NCBI GenBank assembly: GCA_002897115.2
Contig: BCIH01000002.1
Coordinates: 1,149,721 to 1,213,720, forward strand
From: Prototheca cutis
Taxonomy: Eukaryota; Chlorophyta; Trebouxiophyceae; Chlorellales; Chlorellaceae
DNA: 64,000 nt
Direction: 5' to 3'
The notes beneath the pieces were generated by a model that searched no databases, had not been told where the DNA came from, and worked only from the letters and a program-made list of their open reading frames with translations. Position numbers and translations under genes: made by a program. Each line of letters begins with the position of its first letter. Position 1 is the stretch's first letter. Shown piece after piece: positions 15,441-51,213 of this stretch.

Positions 15441-15800
15441 TGGGGTTTAGAGGCTGTGGTGCTACGGGTGATGACGGCGGCGAAGAGCATGGAATCCCCC
15501 CGGGTGGCCGCCAACCCGGCGCTATTTTGGGTGTGCAGAGAACACCGAGTTTTTTTTCCGCGAATGGAGGTTTCATGCACTGCAAAGCACTCTTCGTATG
15601 GTGTGAGGAGGCGCCGGGGGACGTCGGCGGTGGCAGAGCTGTCTGCGCCGCCTCTGCATCGGGCCCCCACTGGCAATGCTGAAGGCCGATGCTCTCTGTA
15701 ACGTTGATAATCGATCACAAGTCAACAATACTGCTGATTCCATGCCACACGAAGGAGTATGTGGAATCAGGGTCCTGTGTGCCGCACATTGGGCCTTCTG
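15441..15800. other. Spacer between SnRK1 beta and the Fanzor transposon
   Basis: No recognised gene. Probably the 3' region of the SnRK1 beta gene up to the left end of the inserted element. Confidence 0.4.
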
Positions 15801-16108
15801 TACTATGCAGGGCAAAAATGAAAACCTTGTCGAGATTCATCGACTCCCACCTGCTCAGCAAGGGCATGTCTCCCAAACAAAATGCCTGTTGGACCACATC
15901 CCCTTGCTGCGTTGTCCAGAAAATGGGCTTAGTTCCTTCATGGGACAGGTCGTGCAAGGAAGTTTCAGAAGGTCCTGGACATTGACCCAGGCCAAGGGCC
16001 CTGAGTCTCCCGAGGAGGGTCGGCCAGTGGGAACTCGGTACAACATACGGGGCCTCCCCGCTGACCTATCTATTTCATGCACCCATTACAATGACGGGTG
16101 CAAAGCGA

Positions 16109-16218
16109 ATGGCCCGCAGCTTTTGGGGTAGCGGGCGGGAGGCGCCCAGGGGCGCCATGACGACCGCCAAGGCGTCAGTGCGTGCGACCTGGCAGCGCAG
16201 GTTCCACGGTCTTCTGGA
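16109..16218 (+). other. Short upstream ORF resembling Fanzor exon 1
   Basis: Begins ATGGCCCGCAGCTTTTGGGG, about 290 bp upstream of exon 1, and resembles its first ~100 bases (SFWGSGRE against DFWGRGRE). It stops after seven codons in its own frame, and the homologous stretch ends in a GACGAATAG stop. A counterpart with the same spacing and the same Leu-Asp-Glu-stop ending precedes the intact Fanzor gene at 38981. Confidence 0.5.
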
Positions 16219-16394
16219 CGAATAGGAGAGCCAGGTCGACATCAGCTCGTGAGTTCCCGTTCTGGAAGGCGGTGCTGTCCCGTGCGCGTTGGCATTCTAA
16301 CGGCCCCCCAACTGAAGATGCCGAAGGTGGGAGACCTCACGCCGGCCTGCCCAATCCATCGCCCATTATTACAGCAGGCAGGATTGCAAGGTCG

Positions 16395-18310
16395 ATGGAC
16401 CGCGACTTTTGGGGCCGCGGGCGGGAGGTGCTCAAGGGCGTCTTTACGGCCGCCAAGGCGTCGGTGCTGGCGACCTGGAGGCGCATGTTCCATGGTCCTC
16501 AGGAGCAGTATGTCCAAAAGATGCATCCCGTGAAGCAGCATGCCTCGTTCTTCGCCGCACTCGTGTTGCTGGAGGAGGACGAGGCGGGCAGTGCGGACTT
16601 TGCAACGCGGTTCATCTGTCCCAGGTTCTTTTCCGAGGCCTTCCTGTACATGGTCAGCTACCCTAGGGGGAGAACAACAAACCCCGAAACGACATACTTC
16701 CGTGCCCGATTCCAGAGGTCCTGGCCCACGTTCCAGCAGGCGACTGCGTACGAGCGGCGGCAGTTCTACCACGCACCGAACCAGGTGACTGATTGAGTTG
16801 TGGTTGCATGTGTTGCTTGCATCACGGGCTGAATGCAGGATTGTCTATGATGGGTTGGCACGCAATGGCCCAGACCACGTGGTGGACGAGCCGGGTGCTC
16901 CTTGACGTGCAGGATGCCAAGTACTGGGGAGAAGCCCAGTGCGCGGCGGTGGAGGCCAACGTTCGCAAGCACTTTGGCGAGCACGTGCGGGGCACCATGA
17001 ACCTGATCCTCAACGTCAAGGACCGCCGGAAGGAGGTGGACTGCGCGGATACACAGCAGCCGGCCGCACGACGCAGGGTCGTGAAGCGCCGAGGCCTCGA
17101 GGGCCTGCGCTACGTCGATGACCTCAGCCCCGNNNNNNNNNNNNNNNNNNNNNNNNNNNNNNNNNNNNNNNNNNNNNNNNNNNNNNNNNNNNNNNNNNNN
17201 NNNNNNNNNNNNNNNNNNNNNNNNNNNNNNNNNNNNNNNNNNNNNNNNNNNNNNNNNNNNNNNNNNNNNNNNNNNNNNNNNNNNNNNNNNNNNNNNNNNN
17301 NNNNNNNNNNNNNNNNNNNNNNNNNNNNNNNNNNNNNNNNNNNNNNNNNNNNNNNNNNNNNNNNNNNNNNNNNNNNNNNNNNNNNNNNNNNNNNNNNNNN
17401 NNNNNNNNNNNNNNNNNNNNNNNNNNNNNNNNNNNNNNNNNNNNNNNNNNNNNNNNNNNNNNNNNNNNNNNNNNNNNNNNNNNNNNNNNNNNNNNNNNNN
17501 NNNNNNNNNNNNNNNNNNNNNNNNNNNNNNNNNNNNNNNNNNNNNNNNNNNNNNNNNNNNNNNNNNNNNNNNNNNNNNNNNNNNNNNNNNNNNNNNNNNN
17601 NNNNNNNNNNNNNNNNNNNNNNNNNNNNNNNNNNNNNNNNNNNNNNNNNNNNNNNNNNNNNNNNNNNNNNNNNNNNNNNNNNNNNNNNNNNNNNNNNNNN
17701 NNNNNNNNNNNNNNNNNNNNNNNNNNNNNNNNNNNNNNNNNNNNNNNNNNNNNNNNNNNNNNNNNNNNNNNNNNNNNNNNNNNNNNNNNNNNNNNNNNNN
17801 NNNNNNNNNNNNNNNNNNNNNNNNNNNNNNNNNNNNNNNNNNNNNNNNNNNNNNNNNNNNNNNNNNNNNNNNNNNNNNNNNNNNNNNNNNNNNNNNNNNN
17901 NNNNNNNNNNNNNNNNNNNNNNNNNNNNNNNNNNNNNNNNNNNNNNNNNNNNNNNNNNNNNNNNNNNATGCCACACGTGGGGCTGCTGCGGGCGCTGGTC
18001 AAGGCGGGGTTCAAGGTCGTGCTCATCGACGAGTTCCGCACCTCCAAGCGCTGCCCGGCCTGCNAACACGAGGAGTGCACGGTGGAGACGTTCCTCCGCG
18101 TGCCCAACCCACGCCCCTACCGCAGGGAGCAGACGCCCGAGGTGGTGTGCCATCAGCTGGTGCTGCGCCAACGAGGAGTGCCGGCCCCCCGAACGGCGAG
18201 CATCGTCTCTGCAACAGAGACTTGATGGCGTGTCTGAACATGAGGCACATCGTGCAGAGCCTACGGAAGACCGGCCAGCGGCCTCTGCGCTTCCAGCGCC
18301 GCAGTGCTGA
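16395..18310 (+). pseudogene. Fanzor1 nuclease, internally deleted and frameshifted
   Basis: Exon 1 (16395-16784, MDRDFWGRGREVLKG) and exon 2 (from 16913, DAKYWGEAQCAAVEANVRKH, HFGEHVRGTMNLILNVKD) are spliced in phase 0, exactly as in the copy at 39243. At ~17080 the frame jumps to GLEGLRYVDDLSP. This corresponds to residues around 505 of the intact copy, so about 330 codons have been deleted. The RuvC-I region falls in the N gap. After the gap come MPHVGLLRALVKAGFKVVLIDEF, TSKRCPAC and RVPNPRPYRR. A short deletion near 18165 and a second frame change near 18195 separate this from CNRDLMACLNMRHIVQSLR, the RuvC-III region. Non-functional. Confidence 0.85.
17133..17967. other. Assembly gap (835 N)
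   Basis: Run of N inside exon 2 of the decayed Fanzor. By comparison with the intact copy only about 480 bases are needed to bridge the flanking coding parts, so the gap either is of nominal size or hides inserted sequence. Confidence 0.99.
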
Positions 18311-18610
18311 TGAACATCCATCCATCCATCCTGGGGGTTTACAGCCATTTCAACTGGGGGTGGGAACTCCCGGGGCTCCTTCTCTTCCCCGGAAAGGGAA
18401 AGCAGCCCCGGGGGTCGAAACCCTGGGGGCTCCCTTCCCGGGGCAACGAGCTCTCGGCTCCTTGGCCCGGGAAGGGAAAACAGTCCCGGAGGTGGTCCAT
18501 CATTGAGGTGGTCCACCTTCCTATTGCCCTGCAGAGTGAAAATTTTCATCAGTGATGCCCGACAACCCCCGGGGTGATGTGACGCTGTTGCTGGCTGAGC
18601 TGGTTGCATT
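18311..18610 (+). ncRNA. Candidate Fanzor guide RNA (fRNA/omega-RNA-like) scaffold
   Basis: GC-rich noncoding tail between the Fanzor stop and the right terminal repeat. It can fold: CCCGGGGCT at 18369-18377 pairs with AGCCCCGGG at 18404-18412, and further CCCGGG blocks follow. GGTGGTCCA occurs twice (18491 and 18507). The same tail is kept in both ~600-bp derivatives. In TnpB and Fanzor loci the guide scaffold is transcribed from the 3' end of the gene into the element end, with the guide taken from the flank. Assignment here is by position, conservation and foldability only. Confidence 0.45.
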
Positions 18611-18629
18611 ATTTTTGCCCTGCATGGTA

Positions 18630-37367: not shown

Positions 37368-38640
37368 CTATTTTGACGGGACGAGTTGCCCAGCATTGGC
37401 GGTTGGGGATGGCGGGGACGCCTACATATGCCGGTGATAAGTGAATCACTTCAACAACGAGCGCACTATCGTGACCTCGGTCAGCAAGGCTTACGGTTCG
37501 TACGGATTAGTGCCCGATGCTAAGGAGGGTCGCTTGATTGGATCGTGGCCCCTTGGCGAGGCGGTGGTGGGAAAAGTGGGCCCCGCCCGCCTGTCTGCCT
37601 GCCTGAGGCTGGCATTCATTCCGGATCAGAGCCGCTTAAGCTTGACCAGTCAGTGATGAACACTGCATGTAACTCAGAATGGCAGCAGGGTATCTGGGAC
37701 TTTGACTCGCCGAGAAGGGTTATTATGCTGACTGTGGCAGGGAGGACCAACACCGCGCCCTAAGGGTTCTCCTAGCACAGAAACGTGCCCATGTGGAAGT
37801 GCATGCGCACAATTTCTACTGCCTAGACAGTCCAGGCACGGCATGCAAGCGAACATGCCCGACGGAAGGGCGGGCCATGCAGCGCAAATACCATTCCGAC
37901 GCACTGTCGTTGCATTTGATGGGACGAGTGGGTCGTATGGCGGGTGTGCCTACATGTGCCGGGGAAAAGGGGACCACTTCAGCAACGAGCACAGTATCGT
38001 GACCTGGGTCAGCAAGGATTACAGTTCGTACGGGATCAGTACCCAATGCTAAGGGGCCACGCTTGACTGGGTCGTGGCGCGGCCCCTTGGTGAGGCGGTG
38101 GTGGGAAGTGGGCCCTGCTCGCCTCCCTGCCTGCCTGAGTCTGGGCATTCATCCCGGATGCAACGCCGCTTGAACTTGACCAGTCAGTGATGAGCACTAC
38201 ATGCAACCCGGCATGAGGGGAATGTATTTCTTGGGTTTCGACTCGGCAGGAAGGGTCATTGTGCTGACCATGGCAGGGGCCAACACAGCGCTCTTGCAAG
38301 GGGTGCTCCAAATACAGAAGCGTGCACATGTGGAAGTGCATGCGCAACTGGTGCTGTTTAGATACTCCAGGCCCGGCATTCAAGCGAACATGCCTGCCTG
38401 ACGGAAGGGCGGGCCATGCAGTGCAAACACCATTCCGACGCACTGTCATTGTTGCATTTGATGGGACGAGTTGCATTGGCGGTGTGGGGTCTGTCTATAT
38501 ATACCGGTGAAAAGGGCACCACTTCAGCAACGAGCGCAGTATCGTGACGTCTGTCAGCGAGGCTTACAGTTTGTACGGGATTTTGTAGGAATTAGCTGTG
38601 GTGTACCCAATGGTAAGGGCAGTCGCTTGATTGGGTCCCT
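37368..38640 (+). repeat. Tandem array of a ~535-bp unit, about 2.3 copies
   Basis: The landmark CAACGAGCGCA.TATCGTGAC recurs near 37456, 37982 and 38529, each preceded by ACATATGCCGGTG-like sequence and followed by GCTTGATTGGGTC. Units differ by point changes and small indels. Partial inverted copies lie at 43597-44050 and a partial direct copy at 46100-46224. No conserved ORF spans the units. Confidence 0.85.
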
Positions 38641-38812
38641 ACCCCGGGGGGGCGCGCTTCAAAACGTACCTGCGCCGCCCAGGCCAGGCGTAATCGTAGC
38701 CCCCACTCGGGCACGAGGTCCATGGCACGTCCGACGAAGACCGTTTGGGGTCCCAGTTTCGTTCCATGTGGCCTTGTCCGTCCTGGAAGCAACGCATGCA
38801 AACCCCATAGTC
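38493..38812 (+). repeat. Left arm of a ~320-bp inverted repeat flanking the intact Fanzor gene
   Basis: Pairs with 43597-43918 in reverse complement. Shared blocks include GCTTGATTGGGTC, TCGTAGCCCCCACT and GGGGTCCCAGTTTCGTTCCA. The outer part overlaps the tandem repeat unit; the inner part is unique to the two arms. Confidence 0.8.
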
Positions 38813-38980
38813 GGTCCTAGTCGGTGGGTCGGTCGATCAGTCGGGCATCACTCCGTCCGAGAGTACGGGCGTGTCGACGGAATGACACCGCTGCCGGTGT
38901 GGACAGAAGGACGACGCTGCGGACACACAAACGCGCTTGTTTTTCATGGATCCAAGCATTACAAGCGAGTTCAGAGTCCG

Positions 38981-39088
38981 ATGGATCGCGACTGTTGGGG
39001 TTTCGCTCACGAATCACCGCCGCGGGCGGCGCGCCCGACGTCCCTGAGCGGCGGGACGGGCGTCCAAGTCCTGCCGCTGGATGAGTAG
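38981..39088 (+). other. Short upstream ORF (35 codons) resembling Fanzor exon 1
   Basis: Begins MDRDCWGFAHESPPR and ends LPLDE before a stop, 262 bp upstream of the Fanzor start (MDRDFWALGREPPR). It is the counterpart of the fragment at 16109, with similar spacing and the same Leu-Asp-Glu-stop ending. It could be an alternative first exon, a regulatory uORF or an old duplication. Confidence 0.5.
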
Positions 39089-39242
39089 GACAGCCAACCC
39101 ATCGCTCGTGAGTTGCCGGTCTAGAGGACAGTGGGCCCCAGCAGTTTGGCGATTTGGGGATGGGACACCCTTCATATGCGCCAGCTGACCAAACCCCTCC
39201 ATGTGCCGCCCATGACCACATCACAGGGGCAACGACCCCAGG

Positions 39243-41943
39243 ATGGACCGCGACTTCTGGGCGCTCGGGCGGGAGCCGCCCCGGGACGGGATCACGACCG
39301 TCAAGGGTTCTGTGCTCGTGGCGTGGCAGCGCTGTCACCACGCGCCGCTGGAGAACTTTGTCCTCGTCGTGGACCACGTGAGCTTCCACGCCTGGCACTT
39401 TTCCCGGCTCGTGATCCTCGAGGAGTACGAGGCGGGCAGGGACGTGCCGAGGCTGATCCGCCGCGAGTTCTTTCAGGAGGTGTTCCTTTGGCTCACCGTC
39501 TGCGAACGGCGAAAGCCACAGACCGAACGAACGGTCGACTACCGTGTGACCCTGGCGAGGTACTGGCCCAAGTTCCTGGAGCTGTTTTGCTACCGCGCGC
39601 CAGTCTTCCAGTATGCGCCGACCAAGGTGATTGATTGACTGCGTTGGTGGCGTGGTTCGCATGCGTTACTGGCTTTACAGGGTGGCTTGGCGTGGTTGCC
39701 CTGGTGTGGTGGCCCTGCCTCTGTCTGTGCTGACTCGGCACACAACGGCCAAGAACGATCGATCAAATCCGGATGTGCGCCGCCGACGTGACATGCAGAT
39801 CGCCACGTACTGGGGCGACGCACGGTGCCGGCAGCTGCTGAGCAACGTGAAAGTGCACTTCGGCGAGCATGTGCGGGGCACCGTGAACCTGCTCCTCGAC
39901 ATGAAGGGCCGGCGGCACGAGGTGCTGGAGCAGGCGAGCGCGGAGCAGTGGGATCGCCAGAGGCGCATCGAGGCATTGAGGCGGCTCTACGACCCGGTGA
40001 CGCGCGTGAAGCAGGCGCTCGGGCGCCTGGAGCCGGCCGTGGAGGGGCTGGGCCCCGCCCATCAGGCGGTGTACGACGAGATGCTGCGGGTTTTGCGGCC
40101 TGCCTATTGGCCGGGACGTGAGTTCAAGAAAGGCACCCTTTACTACGACGTCAAGCTGCACGCAAGGGAGCACGTCGTCGCGATGATCGCGCTGTCCCGC
40201 TTTCGCGACGAGCAGGAGTTGCGTCTGTTCCAGGCGCTTCCTTTGCGCCGGTCGCATGTGCCCGCGGCGGTCGAGTTTGACAACCAGATCGTCGCGACGC
40301 ACATCCTGGGAGGCTACGTGCTCGGCCAGTGGTCGGACAACAAGACTGAAATCTGGGAACGGGCACTGCGGGGCTGGCGCCGCGAGATCCAGACCGTCGG
40401 TGGAAAGCTGTTTTCTGGACACGGGTCCACCAACGCCGTCTCTTGTAGCTACACCAAGAAGCCGCTGGGCCACGTCGGCCGGTGGGACGGCAAACGCGGT
40501 GGCGGTGATGGCGGTGGTGGTGGCGGCGGCGGCGGTGGTAGTGATGGCGGCGGCGGTGATGGCGGCGACGCAGGACACGGCGGCGCCGGCAACAGCGCCG
40601 GCAACAGCGCCAACGACAGCGTGTGGCCCGCGAAGCGGGTGCGCCTCTGCGGCGGAAAGAGCGGCGGTGACAACGAGGACGGCGGCGGCGACTGCAGCCA
40701 CGCCGGGCGAGTCGAGGGGGGGAAGCCCAGTGGCTCCCGTGCAGAATGTGACGGGCCGGCCAGCAGCGATGCTGGTCGGGCGGCAGAACCAGCCGCCAGC
40801 CCGCAATCAGCCGCGGGGACGAGCCGACTGGGATCCCAGACCCAAGATCGCACCGGTGCGGAGCAGGCCGCGGCCCGATGCGTCTCGCGTCGCTTCCACG
40901 CCGAGGGCCTGAAGTACGTCGACGGGCTCGGCCGCGAGGAGTTGCGCCAGCTCCCGAAGACCGTGGTCATCGACCCCGGCCGCCGGGTTCTGATGAGCTG
41001 CATGCGCGAGGACTCCAAGCCCGGGAAGGGGCAGCGCAAGACGATGGGGATCACGGCCAAGCAGTGGAGGCAGTGGACGCAAACGTACAAGGTCCTGGGG
41101 TGGATCAACCAGCGCAAGACCGCCAAGGTGCGCGAGTGCGAGCGGCGGCTGGGCGAGGAGGCGCCCAACGGGCACCAGTCCTGCACCGTGGCGGGCTACA
41201 CGCGCTACCTCCGCGCCCTGGCCCAGGTCCGGCCCACGCTCGCCGAGTTCTACAAGAAGCCCATCTTCCGGAAACTCCGCCTGTGGCAGTACATCCGCCG
41301 CCAGAAGGCCGACGCAAAGGTCGTCCAGCGCATGCGCAAGTTCGCGTGCGGGGCGACGCTGGTGATCGGCGACTGCTCTCCGCCCATGGCGCGCTACCAC
41401 GAGCCGATGCCCCACTTCGGCCTGGTGCGGACGCTGGTCAAGGCGGGGTTCAGCGCGCTGCTCGTCGACGAGTACTTCACCTCCCAGACCTGCCCCGGCT
41501 GCCGTAACCGCTCGCTGGAGAAGTTCAAGCGCGTGCCCAACCTGCGCAAGCGCGGCAAGCGCGCGTGCAAGAACGGGCGCGAGTGCAAGAGCGAGCGCGG
41601 GTGCAAGAACGGGCGCGAGTGCAAGAGCGAGCGCGGGTGCAAGAACGGGCGCAACGGCAAGAAAGACCGCAAGCGCATCAAGGAAAAGCGCAAGCGCGTC
41701 AAGGAGCGGCGCAAGCGTGACAATGCAAAGCTCCCCACCATGCTGTGCCACGGGCTGCTCCGCTGCACCAATTGCAAGCTCAAGGACGGCCGGCCACGCC
41801 TCTGGAACAGGGACGTCATGGCCTGCCTGAACATGATCATCATCGTCCAGAGCCTGCGCGAGACTGGCAAGCGCCCAGCGGAGTTCCAGCGCCCAGAGGG
41901 CCACCGACGTTCAAAGAAGCCCCTTGAATCCCCTGCATCATGA
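39243..41943 (+). CDS. Fanzor1 RNA-guided endonuclease (TnpB/OrfB homologue), apparently intact
   Basis: Exons 39243-39626 and 39799-41943 splice in phase 0 to 842 residues; the intron position is identical in the decayed copy at 16395. Residues 1-300 hold the N-terminal region (YWGDARCRQLLSNVKVHFGE, HVRGTVNLLLDMKGRR). Residues ~355-500 are a Gly/Asp/Ser-rich low-complexity insert. The RuvC core has Asp520 in TVVIDPGRR, Glu686 in LLVDEYFTSQTCPGC and Asp800 in LWNRDVMACLNM. The usual RuvC-II site reads VIGDCS, so Glu686 probably serves as the relocated glutamate typical of Fanzors. Zinc-ribbon cysteines are C693, C696, C784 and C787. A Lys/Arg-rich C-K-N-G-R repeat splits the ribbon and may double as a nuclear localisation signal. 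It lies inside ~320-bp inverted repeats. Activity is inferred from residues, not shown. Confidence 0.9.
41565..41720 (+). repeat. 36-bp coding minisatellite within the Fanzor zinc ribbon
   Basis: Encodes about two and a half copies of CKNGRECKSERG, followed by KKDRKRIKEKRKRVKERRKR. The decayed copies have only a short loop at this position, so this is an in-frame expansion specific to the intact gene. Confidence 0.9.
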
Positions 41944-41978
41944 ACCTGTGGGTTGTATTTTCTTCCTGCATGGACTGC

Positions 41979-42138
41979 NNNNNNNNNNNNNNNNNNNNNN
42001 NNNNNNNNNNNNNNNNNNNNNNNNNNNNNNNNNNNNNNNNNNNNNNNNNNNNNNNNNNNNNNNNNNNNNNNNNNNNNNNNNNNNNNNNNNNNNNNNNNNN
42101 NNNNNNNNNNNNNNNNNNNNNNNNNNNNNNNNNNNNNN
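41979..42138. other. Assembly gap (160 N)
   Basis: Begins 35 bases after the Fanzor stop codon, so the 3' noncoding tail, and any guide-RNA scaffold, of the intact gene is unread. Confidence 0.99.
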
Positions 42139-42217
42139 GACCATCCATGATCCGTTTCCTGCCTGCCATGTTTCCCCTTCCAGATCATTCCCATGCATGC
42201 ACCACTGTGCCCTTACC

Positions 42218-42330
42218 ATCCCCTGTACCATATAACCCACGCCCCCAGCAATATACGGGGGGATCTTTGTACAATACATGCTTTGCTTCCTGTGTAACAG
42301 CTGCTAGCATAGTGAGAGCACGACAGCAAG
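42218..42330 (+). repeat. Repeat family A, copy 1
   Basis: About 100 bp starting AACCCACGCCCCC, with TATACGGGGGGATCTTT and a palindrome-like end (here GCTGCTAGCATAGTGAG). Other copies: 44855-44970, 45195-45300 (inverted) and 45885-45996. Confidence 0.75.
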
Positions 42331-42352
42331 TCTCTTATCGGGTATTTCCCTT

Positions 42353-42954
42353 TACCATGCAGGGCAAAAATAATGCAACCAATTCGGCCGGCAGCAGTGC
42401 CAGGTATCCCCGGCGGTCTTGGGAAGCACTGGCACAAAATTTCACACTCTGCAGAGCAATAGGAAGGTGGACCACCTCAATGATGGACCACCCCCGGGGC
42501 TGCTTTCCCTTTCCGGGGGAGGGAAGGAGCCCCGGGGGTTTCGACCCCCATTGGAAGGCTATAACCTTCCAGGATGGATTTTACTGCGGCGCTGGGCGCT
42601 GGAAGCGCTCCGGCCGCTCGCTGGTCTCCCGCAGGCGCTGCACAATATGCCTCATGTTCAGACACGCCATCACGTCTCGGTTCCAGAGACGATGCTCGCC
42701 TTTCTGGGGCGGCACTTCTCGTTGGTGCAGCGCAGCAGCCCCTGGCACAGCACCATGGGCGTCTGCTCCCTGCAGTTCAGGCATGGGTTGGGCACGACCT
42801 GTCCTGCTGCCAAGAAGGAACCCAACCCATGCTCTGAGCGACGCGGCAAGGGAATATGGCCAAACAGGCATTTTGTTTGGGAGAGATGCCCTTGCTGTGC
42901 AGGTGAGAGTCAAGGAATCTCGAGAAGGTTTCATCATTTTCTGCCGTTACTGTA
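42353..42954 (-). mobile_element. Non-autonomous ~600-bp derivative of the Fanzor transposon (MITE-like)
   Basis: Ends carry TA: the left end reads TACCATGCAGGGCAAAAAT, identical to the right end of the 15801 element in inverted orientation. The right end is the degenerate partner (CATTTTCTGCCGTTACTGTA) next to the shared CTCGAGAAGG block. The interior keeps only the C-terminal zinc-ribbon/RuvC-III coding part and the GC-rich tail. The body of the gene is deleted. Confidence 0.75.
42581..42937 (-). pseudogene. Fanzor C-terminal fragment
   Basis: One frame gives MVLCQGLLRCTNEKCRP, the second zinc-ribbon half. After one frame change comes EHRLWNRDVMACLNMRHIVQ, the RuvC-III motif. It ends RPERFQRPAPQ, like the intact protein's EFQRPEG. 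The Asp of NRD is kept, but nothing upstream survives. Confidence 0.85.
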
Positions 42955-43596
42955 GAGGCGTCCTCTTTTGCGATGGAGTCCTGACAGCCACAAGACAGAC
43001 CAGTTCCCACGTGATCGCCACCCCCGCACCGAAACATGCTCGGGGGGTCCCGAGCACCGACACCTTCAAATAATCCACCGGCACATTTTCCCCCACATCG
43101 ACACTTTCAATCCCGTGCAAACGTATACGGATAACACTTTCTGGAGTCGTCCCTCCTGCTGTGAGGGAACGACTCCTCCAAGGCGGCCGTGGTCGTCCCT
43201 GGGTAGCTCCCGCTTGCTTGCATGAGGCCCGTGGCCACGACACAGGTGGATCTACAGGCGTCATGCAGGGCCATTCCAGCGAGCGCACTGACATTTGAGC
43301 GGGAGGATATCTGGAGACGGCTCTGCTTGGCCTCACTGTCGGAGTCGGTGCGCCAGAGCGTGGTGGGAAGCTCTCCCCCTGCTCGGCAGGCTCCCCATCC
43401 GTCTGCACACGCCCATTCACAAGGCAGTGCACCTGCGGCGCCTGCTCTCGCGCGACGCCCTGGCCAAAGGATGGGGCGATCGCTTGGCCGCCGCGCAGGC
43501 CCTGGTGCAAGGCCATGCTGACAGCTGTCCAGGCCTCCCTGGCGACCCAGTCCCAGGCCTGGGGCGCGTGCTCGGGACGGGCACCGGGCCGACCGA
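42955..43596. other. Unassigned sequence between the derivative and the right inverted repeat
   Basis: A plus-strand frame from ~43295 reaches into the right repeat arm (DALAKGWGDRLAAAQALVQG) but matches no family I know. No transposase motif seen. Confidence 0.4.
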
Positions 43597-43918
43597 CCGG
43601 CCGACCGGCCGGCCGACTTGCATGCGTTGCGTTGCTTCCAGGACGGGCAAGGCCACATGGAACGAAACTGGGACCCCAAATGGTCTTCGCCGGACGTGCC
43701 TCGTGCCCAAGTGGGGGCTACGATACCGCCTGGCCCATGGTGACGTTTTTAAGGGGGCCCCCCCCACCCGGGTGCAGTGACCCAATCAAGCGACCCCCCT
43801 CACCATTGGGTACTGATCCCTACACAATCCCGTGCTAGCTGCAAGCCTCGCTGACCGGGGGTGCAGTACTGCGCTCGTTGTCGAAGTGACTCCCTTGCTA
43901 CCGGCCTATATAGGCGTA
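43597..43918 (-). repeat. Right arm of the ~320-bp inverted repeat
   Basis: Reverse complement of 38493-38812 with moderate divergence. Matching blocks include TGGAACGAAACTGGGACCCC and AGTGGGGGCTACGAT. The arms enclose about 5.4 kb with the intact Fanzor gene and the ~600-bp derivative. Confidence 0.8.
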
Positions 43919-44050
43919 CCCGCCATCCCACACGGCCAGGGCTTGTAGTGACATAATCAGGCGATCCCCCGCACCATTGGACACTAATCCCTATACAATC
44001 CCTCACTAACTGTACTCCGCCACTGCAAGGTTACAGTACTACGCTCGTGA
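43919..44050 (-). repeat. Partial inverted copy of the 535-bp array unit
   Basis: Contains CACCATTGGACACTAATCCC and GTACTACGCTCGTGAT, the reverse complement of array landmarks. It mirrors the array outside the left arm. Confidence 0.7.
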
Positions 44051-49865: not shown

Positions 49866-50460
49866 TACACTAACGGCGGCAAGTGGTGAAACCTTCTTCT
49901 CGAGATTCGTGAGAAGNCCCCCGCGTGAATAGCAAGGGCATCTCTCCCAAACAAAATGTCTGTTGGACGGCATTCCCTTGCCGCGTCGCTCAGAGAATGG
50001 GTTGGGTTCCTTCTTGGCAGCAAGGCAGGTCGGGCAGGCAGCAGACACCCGAGGTGGTGTGCCATCAGCTGGTGCTGCACCAACGAGGAGTGCCGGTCCC
50101 CGAAAAGCGAGCATCGCCTCTGGAACAGAGACTTGATGGCGTGTCTGAACATGAGGCACATCGTGCAGAGCCTGCGGGAGACCGGCCAGTGGCCTCTGCG
50201 TTTCCAGCGCCGCAGTGCTGATGAACATACATCCATGCATCCTGGGGGNTNANAGCCTTCCCAACTGGGGGAGGGAAAGCCTGGGGCTCCTTCCCTTTCC
50301 CGGGAAGGGAAAGGAGGTGGTCCATCATTGAGGCAGTCCACCTTCCTCTTGCCCTGTGGGGGGTGACAATTCACAGCCATCAGGGATGCCCAGCAACCCC
50401 CGGGGTGATGTGACGCNGTTGCNGNCTGAGCTGGTTGCATTATTTTGGCCCTGCATGGTA
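49866..50460 (+). mobile_element. Second ~600-bp non-autonomous derivative of the Fanzor transposon
   Basis: The left end, TACACTAACGGCGGCAAGTG, matches the degenerate end of the 42353 element. The right end is ATTTTGGCCCTGCATGGTA. TA flanks both. It contains the AGCAAGGGCATCTCTCCC block, a Fanzor C-terminal fragment and the GC-rich tail with GGTGGTCCATCATTGAGG. Several Ns fall inside. Confidence 0.75.
49990..50222 (+). pseudogene. Fanzor C-terminal fragment
   Basis: TPEVVCHQLVL in one frame, then CTNEECRSPKSEHRLWNRDL and MACLNMRHIVQSLRETGQ in the next. It shares with the 16395 pseudogene a short deletion between LVL and CTNEEC, so these two copies have a more recent common source than the 42581 copy. 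Confidence 0.85.
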
Positions 50461-51213
50461 GTTTTCCGGAACCCAAACTGTGGTGACCCAATCAGGCGGA
50501 GGGCCGCCACTTTTGACCATTCATGGGCGGCATTCACGGCGGTGGTGGGGGNTCACGTGGACCCCCCCTACTGGGCTGGCATCGTCCTTGCCTCCATCGC
50601 AAAAGAGGGCACCTCGAGAAGGCAACAGCACTGATTGCTGGGCTGTTCAGGAGCAATTTGTTTGTGTTCTGTGGTGGAGCCCCACGAGGCGATGGAGCGG
50701 GTCTGAGGACACCGGCCCCTAGCAACCGGCCGACTGTGGAGACAGAGTGCTGGTGCAGTTAGGCAGCGTTCCCGAGAGGAGGGCGTGGATGCCTTGCAAT
50801 GACTGAGCTCCAATGGCAGTGGCGGGGAGGTCCCTGGGGCCTGAAGACGAGGCATGCANTGCGCTGGTGGGATGCCATGAAACGAGAACACGAATGGAAA
50901 GCATGAAATCCGCCTGGGAACGGCAGATTAGAAACCGAGATCAGACACGTGCTGTTGGTTAGAGTACTCGTGAACCAGGCTGATTATTTTGCCGCAAATT
51001 TTTCTCTCGGTTTTGACCGACTCGTTTATTCGCCTTCCCTGTTCTCCCAGGGCACACACACGCGTCCGGGGCTTTCGTGGGTGCCCAACGTTCCTTGCAT
51101 GTCACCGTTGTCGTCCAATCCCGCCTGTTCTGCCCACGCCCCCTCTAACGACGAGCCTGCTCCCTGAGCGGTGTCATCAATTTGTGTGCTTCACTTAGGG
51201 TTACCGCCGTCGA
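50461..51213. other. Intergenic stretch
   Basis: Between the derivative and the TWD40-2 stop codon. No recognised gene. Includes single Ns at 50552 and 50860. Confidence 0.45.

Follow-up and report, generated by a model that had tools for sequence, protein, structure and literature searches.

Is the Fanzor gene at this Prototheca cutis locus intact, and how does it relate to the mobile elements around it? Fanzors, relatives of TnpB and Cas12, are eukaryotic nucleases that cut DNA under RNA guidance, and the reason for their retention in genomes is an open question on which the elements of P. cutis bear. We analyzed a stretch of 64,000 nucleotides (the window: assembly GCA_002897115.2, contig BCIH01000002.1, positions 1,149,721 to 1,213,720), in which an earlier note, made from the letters alone, had proposed an apparently intact Fanzor gene, and compared it with the whole assembly (23 contigs, 19.9 Mb). 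The gene (Table 1) almost certainly encodes a full-length Fanzor1, an identification supported by homology, by comparison of gene structure, by a DED triad at the Fanzor positions, by the zinc ribbon and by the fold. It is likely a lone P. cutis lineage of mobile-element origin. The earlier observation was correct and concerns a protein of a familiar type; the surrounding family of elements is the more useful find.

The spliced frame runs for 842 codons from an ATG start to the TGA at 41941-41943 with no internal stops, and translation recovers everything that had been read from it: two exons, D520, E686, D800 and four zinc cysteines (exon-2 residue numbers are the protein numbers minus 128). 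Three Fanzor lineages are present in the genome: the window gene alone, a pair of copies on C4 (L010 and L011, with 67% mutual identity) and a younger family whose fetched copies have ~89-94% DNA identity. Exon 2 has at least 93 genome matches, itself included and often several per copy (62 of 244 candidates scored); apart from the self-match, the longest of those listed show 46-55% identity. Against the seven copies compared, identity is ~50% in amino acids and 58-68% in DNA.

Comparison with these paralogues backs the predicted intron. The window gene has splice sites of the GT...AG type (donor AAG/GTGATTGA, acceptor GACATGCAG/, the slash marking the boundary), and younger-family copies are interrupted at the identical codon position by introns with different bodies (donor CAG/GTGACTGA, acceptor GACGTGCAG/), GTGA-TGA...TGCAG being the boundary pattern common to the copies. 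In L010 and L011 an intron interrupts the same site; its donor is GTGAGT or GTGCGT and its acceptor GCGCAG/. The start, MDRDFW, is found again wherever the alignment of exon 1 begins at the first residue (MDKDCW in L011, MDEDCW in L010).

The published definition of Fanzors calls for DPG at RuvC-I and, six residues ahead of the first CxxC, an alternative glutamate for RuvC-II (PMC10711439). The window protein has the DPG (VIDPGRR, D520); its canonical RuvC-II site reads VIGDCS, and E686 stands six residues ahead of the first CxxC (E686-YFTSQT-CPGC). The relocated glutamate suspected in VDEYFTSQTCPGC is therefore where the definition places it, and it aligns with the corresponding residue of SpuFz1 from Spizellomyces punctatus (PDB code 8gkh), to which the protein is 27% identical in structural alignment. 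Of the 9 sequences extending to the D800 column, 8 have D there; the exception is P0001, a 647-residue protein from an ENA contig, with N at this third catalytic position as in GtFz1. P0001 is 76% identical to younger-family copy L017 and 50% to the window gene, and it too has a Gly-rich linker. The zinc ribbon, which had been called complete, has both of its cysteine pairs (C693/C696 and C784/C787), together with the RD motif (RLWNRD).

Both sequence and fold are closest to solved Fanzor1 proteins, in line with the identity first proposed. In a structure model of exon 2, D520 ends the strand 388-392, E686 lies just past the strand 552-556 and D800 starts the helix 671-689 (exon-2 numbers), the positions given for the three catalytic residues of Fanzor1 in PMC11423790. 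As a partial check on the idea that these residues form one active site, their predicted placement on strands and helix appears to fit Fanzor1. The gene scores 17.6 bits against the zinc-ribbon family PF07282, below the cut-off, and is not among the at least 97 genome matches of that family (150 of 181 candidates scored); exon 2 had zero matches in NCBIfam. A widened protein search with the family alignment, with 8000 candidates scored as in the first search, gave that search's 4 proteins again. A viral origin was considered and dropped: two family peptide patterns gave 30 pattern matches in viral contigs and zero relatives.

Mobile elements derived from Fanzors are numerous in the genome of P. 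cutis, a colourless alga. With up to 3 mismatches, the left-end pattern of the younger family occurs at 141 places and the right-end pattern at 323, reversed-pattern controls giving 0; that right ends are more than twice as frequent is only a rough measure, because the two patterns are neither equally long nor equally conserved. Thirty-five left ends could be paired with a right end, giving elements of 360-383 bp (4), 543-625 bp (19), 698-797 bp (3) and 1.4-3.2 kb (9), all bounds being approximate; 22 more left ends had no right end inside the fetched sequence. Some right ends also occur as inverted pairs of ~100-120 bp end to end (L086-L090), flanked by TA on both sides in 4 of the 5 fetched, which suggests that a right end can be mobilised on its own. 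In several copies of the younger family (L018 at 700-810 and 980-1369, likewise L012, L028, L035 and L037), exon 1 has its first ~37 codons doubled, the upstream copy lying ~280 bp ahead (MARNFWGSGREAPRGAMTTVKAS...); this is either a duplication or a first exon used alternatively.

In these elements, TA follows the right end in 27 of the 33 whose left border is TAC. Beside the TA of the left flank there is T at -2 in 31/44 and C or G at -1 in 40/44 (background T 0.19), against T in 11/33 and C/G in 15/33 in the mirrored right flank; these counts left out left ends that lacked TAC at the border (7 of 51), right ends that lacked TA (9 of 42), and right-end pattern matches that proved to be reversed left ends. 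Joining the flanks of 33 elements gave no clean match to an empty insertion site within the fetched sequence. The Tc1/mariner transposase domain DDE_3 had no match in the genome with controls detected, while the DDE_1 search was uninformative, its controls being silent, and other transposase models were not tried.

If expressed, the window protein would bind an omegaRNA and recognise a short target-adjacent motif beside the guide match, and its single RuvC site would cut both DNA strands; for a mobile element, such cleavage would favour keeping the insertion site occupied. In the younger family, the RNA would be the structured 3' end that precedes the right border. In the short element next to the window gene, a 3'-terminal stretch of 273 bases has a folding energy of -124.6 kcal/mol; 200 shuffles gave -103.7 ± 5.3, and none was as low. 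A consensus fold across 35 copies (35 of 41 right-end stretches aligned) has 33 pairs, 3 with a compensatory change. A structured 3' RNA end in the younger family is likely, the covariation being weak.

A covariance model built on 31 of the 41 sequences and covering their final 150 bases matches all three family ends in the window and finds nothing credible behind L010, L011 or the window gene; behind the window gene, the expected guide RNA end is unreadable because 160 N cover the place. Rfam returned only four sub-threshold matches, to microRNA and internal ribosome entry site families, for 38500-43500 at E up to 1. Independent deletions were considered as proof of selection on the 3' RNA end and rejected: the argument fails because the 11 aligned ~600-bp elements share one junction and may have a single founder, and because the paired right ends lack most of the 3' region.

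What might the nuclease of the younger family recognise? From the flank counts, T(C/G)TA on the left reads as an insertion motif. Insertion motif and target-adjacent motif commonly coincide in TnpB and Fanzor systems, and by this analogy the one-sided T(C/G)TA flank offers a ready prediction of the target-adjacent motif, which would be 5'-T(C/G)TA. The SpuFz1 motif CATA likewise ends in TA, according to PMC11423790. Two points weigh against the prediction: the motif of PpFz1 (Parasitella parasitica Fanzor1), ATN in the same source, departs from a TA-ending rule, and 4 of the 5 paired right ends, which have no left end, carry T(C/G) beside the TA on one side (judged by eye), so that insertion preference alone may suffice to explain the motif. 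We lean only slightly against the view that the flank reflects just a transposase preference and is silent on the nuclease; elements with a left and a right end show the motif on the left alone, and the common coincidence of the two kinds of motif also speaks for a shared one.

The window gene itself very likely originated from a mobile element, and its present activity is less likely than not. Its open frame exceeds chance expectation: exon 2 stayed open in 0 of 1000 base shuffles, and the whole frame in 7/500 and 14/500 simulated copies at 5% random substitutions and in 0/500 at 10%, under each of two mutation spectra. Intact-looking exon-2 frames with all motifs, some containing N, are also found in L010, L011, L017/L022 and L014/L030, so the window copy is not the sole one.

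The gene could nonetheless be a decaying relic, deprived of its element ends and guide RNA, whose frame is open only for lack of time, a possibility to be taken seriously although it is the less probable one. Neither younger-family element ends (by end-pattern comparison) nor an RNA end were found in the readable sequence around it. It departs from the columns agreed among five other sequences at 17/110, against 5 to 13 departures among 98 to 106 columns when each of those five is tested in the same way; for example, the residue after DPGRR is V525, where the five, PpFz1 and SpuFz1 all have D. Repeats have grown inside its zinc ribbon, forming an insertion that none of the other five members of alignment A1 has. 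The ratio of nonsynonymous to synonymous substitution rates is near 0.8 (0.72-0.83 against seven others, compared with 0.35-0.58 inside the younger family and 0.93 between L010 and L011), the high figures being only rough because of codon bias (0.87 G+C at third codon positions). Against decay, there is no stop or frameshift despite the divergence from the seven copies, simulated drift of 10% breaks every frame, and the catalytic and zinc residues are all kept.

That the gene is instead a domesticated Fanzor, a single copy kept by the host and freed from its transposon, seems unlikely. The missing element ends, a frame intact despite large divergence and the lack of a close copy at the DNA level (exon 1 matches elsewhere in the genome at 66-72%, or up to 79% across at most 90 bases; fetched copies ~66-67%) would fit, but the loss of sister copies also yields singletons, and the flanks are repeats. 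Very improbable is a host-kept, transposon-free Fanzor with guides supplied in trans by the short elements with their structured 3' end, which, if true, would let one nuclease with dispersed guides (right ends at 323 places) watch many genomic sites. As a single divergent copy, the window gene is a candidate for asking whether a Fanzor can outlive its transposon, and the younger family, whose short elements keep or lose the putative guide-RNA end in a small genome, is a natural test of the role of guide RNA in persistence.

The description of the gene as an undescribed system goes too far: Fanzor1 proteins are well known, and the available text of PMC12633428 reports that in Auxenochlorella, a close relative of Prototheca, the most abundant repeat encodes an uncharacterised Fanzor, by that description one of the closest known systems. 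Among the papers listed by our literature searches there was no report of a Fanzor in Prototheca itself; the literature covered takes in few subscription papers. The sections available of PMC3627910 describe Fanzor1 in TA-bordered Tc1/mariner-type elements with inverted ends, some with Fanzor as their only protein, as well as 5'-truncated Fanzor families. The younger family shares the TA borders and inverted ends, but its ends are imperfect, left and right are unlike each other, and no DDE_3 was found in the genome. PpFz1 (PDB codes 9cf0-9cf3) has a long RuvC insertion, presumably the cyclophilin-binding FRI domain treated in PMC11423790, that is missing from the window gene, which has instead a Gly-rich linker and the repeat insertion inside the zinc ribbon.

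Table 1 Positions in the window of the Fanzor1 gene, its key codons and the related elements nearby.
Feature	Position	Strand	Details
Fanzor1 exon 1	39243..39626	+	128 codons, MDRDFWALGREPP...; start and body conserved in paralogues
Predicted intron, 172 bp	39627..39798	+	AAG/GTGATT...ACATGCAG/ATC; paralogues have the same boundaries, different body
Fanzor1 exon 2	39799..41943	+	714 codons and TGA; RNA/DNA-binding parts, RuvC, zinc ribbon
Gly/Asp-rich low-complexity linker before RuvC-I	40496..40890 (approximate limits)	+	Repeats; low model confidence; P0001 also Gly-rich
D520 codon, RuvC-I, VIDPGRR	40972..40974	+	Aligned with SpuFz1 D383; conserved in 11/11 sequences
E686 codon, alternative RuvC-II glutamate, LVDEYFTSQTCPGC	41470..41472	+	Aligned with SpuFz1 E541; conserved in 11/11 sequences
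Basic Cys-containing insertion between zinc-ribbon cysteine pairs	41558..41717	+	36-nt (98% matching) and 21-nt in-frame repeats
D800 codon, RuvC-III, RLWNRD	41812..41814	+	Aligned with SpuFz1 D606
N gap, 160 N, behind stop codon	41979..42138		Sequence reading
Short Fanzor-derived element, ~600 bp with its flanking TAs	42353..42954	-	Left end, then last ~70 codons, then structured 3' region and right end
3' RNA-like end of short element	42353..42497	-	Covariance-model match, folding
Second Fanzor element, younger family	15800..18629 (start approximate)	+	Left end ~15800-15955, right end to 18629; 835-N gap
Second short Fanzor-derived element	49866..50460 (start approximate)	+	End patterns, RNA-model match

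The nearer short element, of 602 bp, lies ~410 bp downstream of the gene on the opposite strand. A ~535-bp tandem repeat is present in about three copies at 37392-38800, with inverted copies at 43628-43943 across the gene. The inverted repeats 38487-38796 and 43628-43921 and their neighbours were considered as transposon ends of the window gene and set aside, because they are part of this local tandem repeat, of which only short pieces occur elsewhere. A right-end-like stretch behind the stop codon (41948-41975) was also rejected, as it matches at 17/28 and unrelated matches nearby reach 18/28. A chlorophyll a/b-binding protein was not found in the genome, and the plastid-type ATP/ADP carrier gene of the window is closest, among matches with a named organism, to trebouxiophyte green algae. 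Another dispersed repeat (43044-43559 and 50541-50754; also L085 at 731-1518) lies 80-90 bp from both short Fanzor elements of the window.
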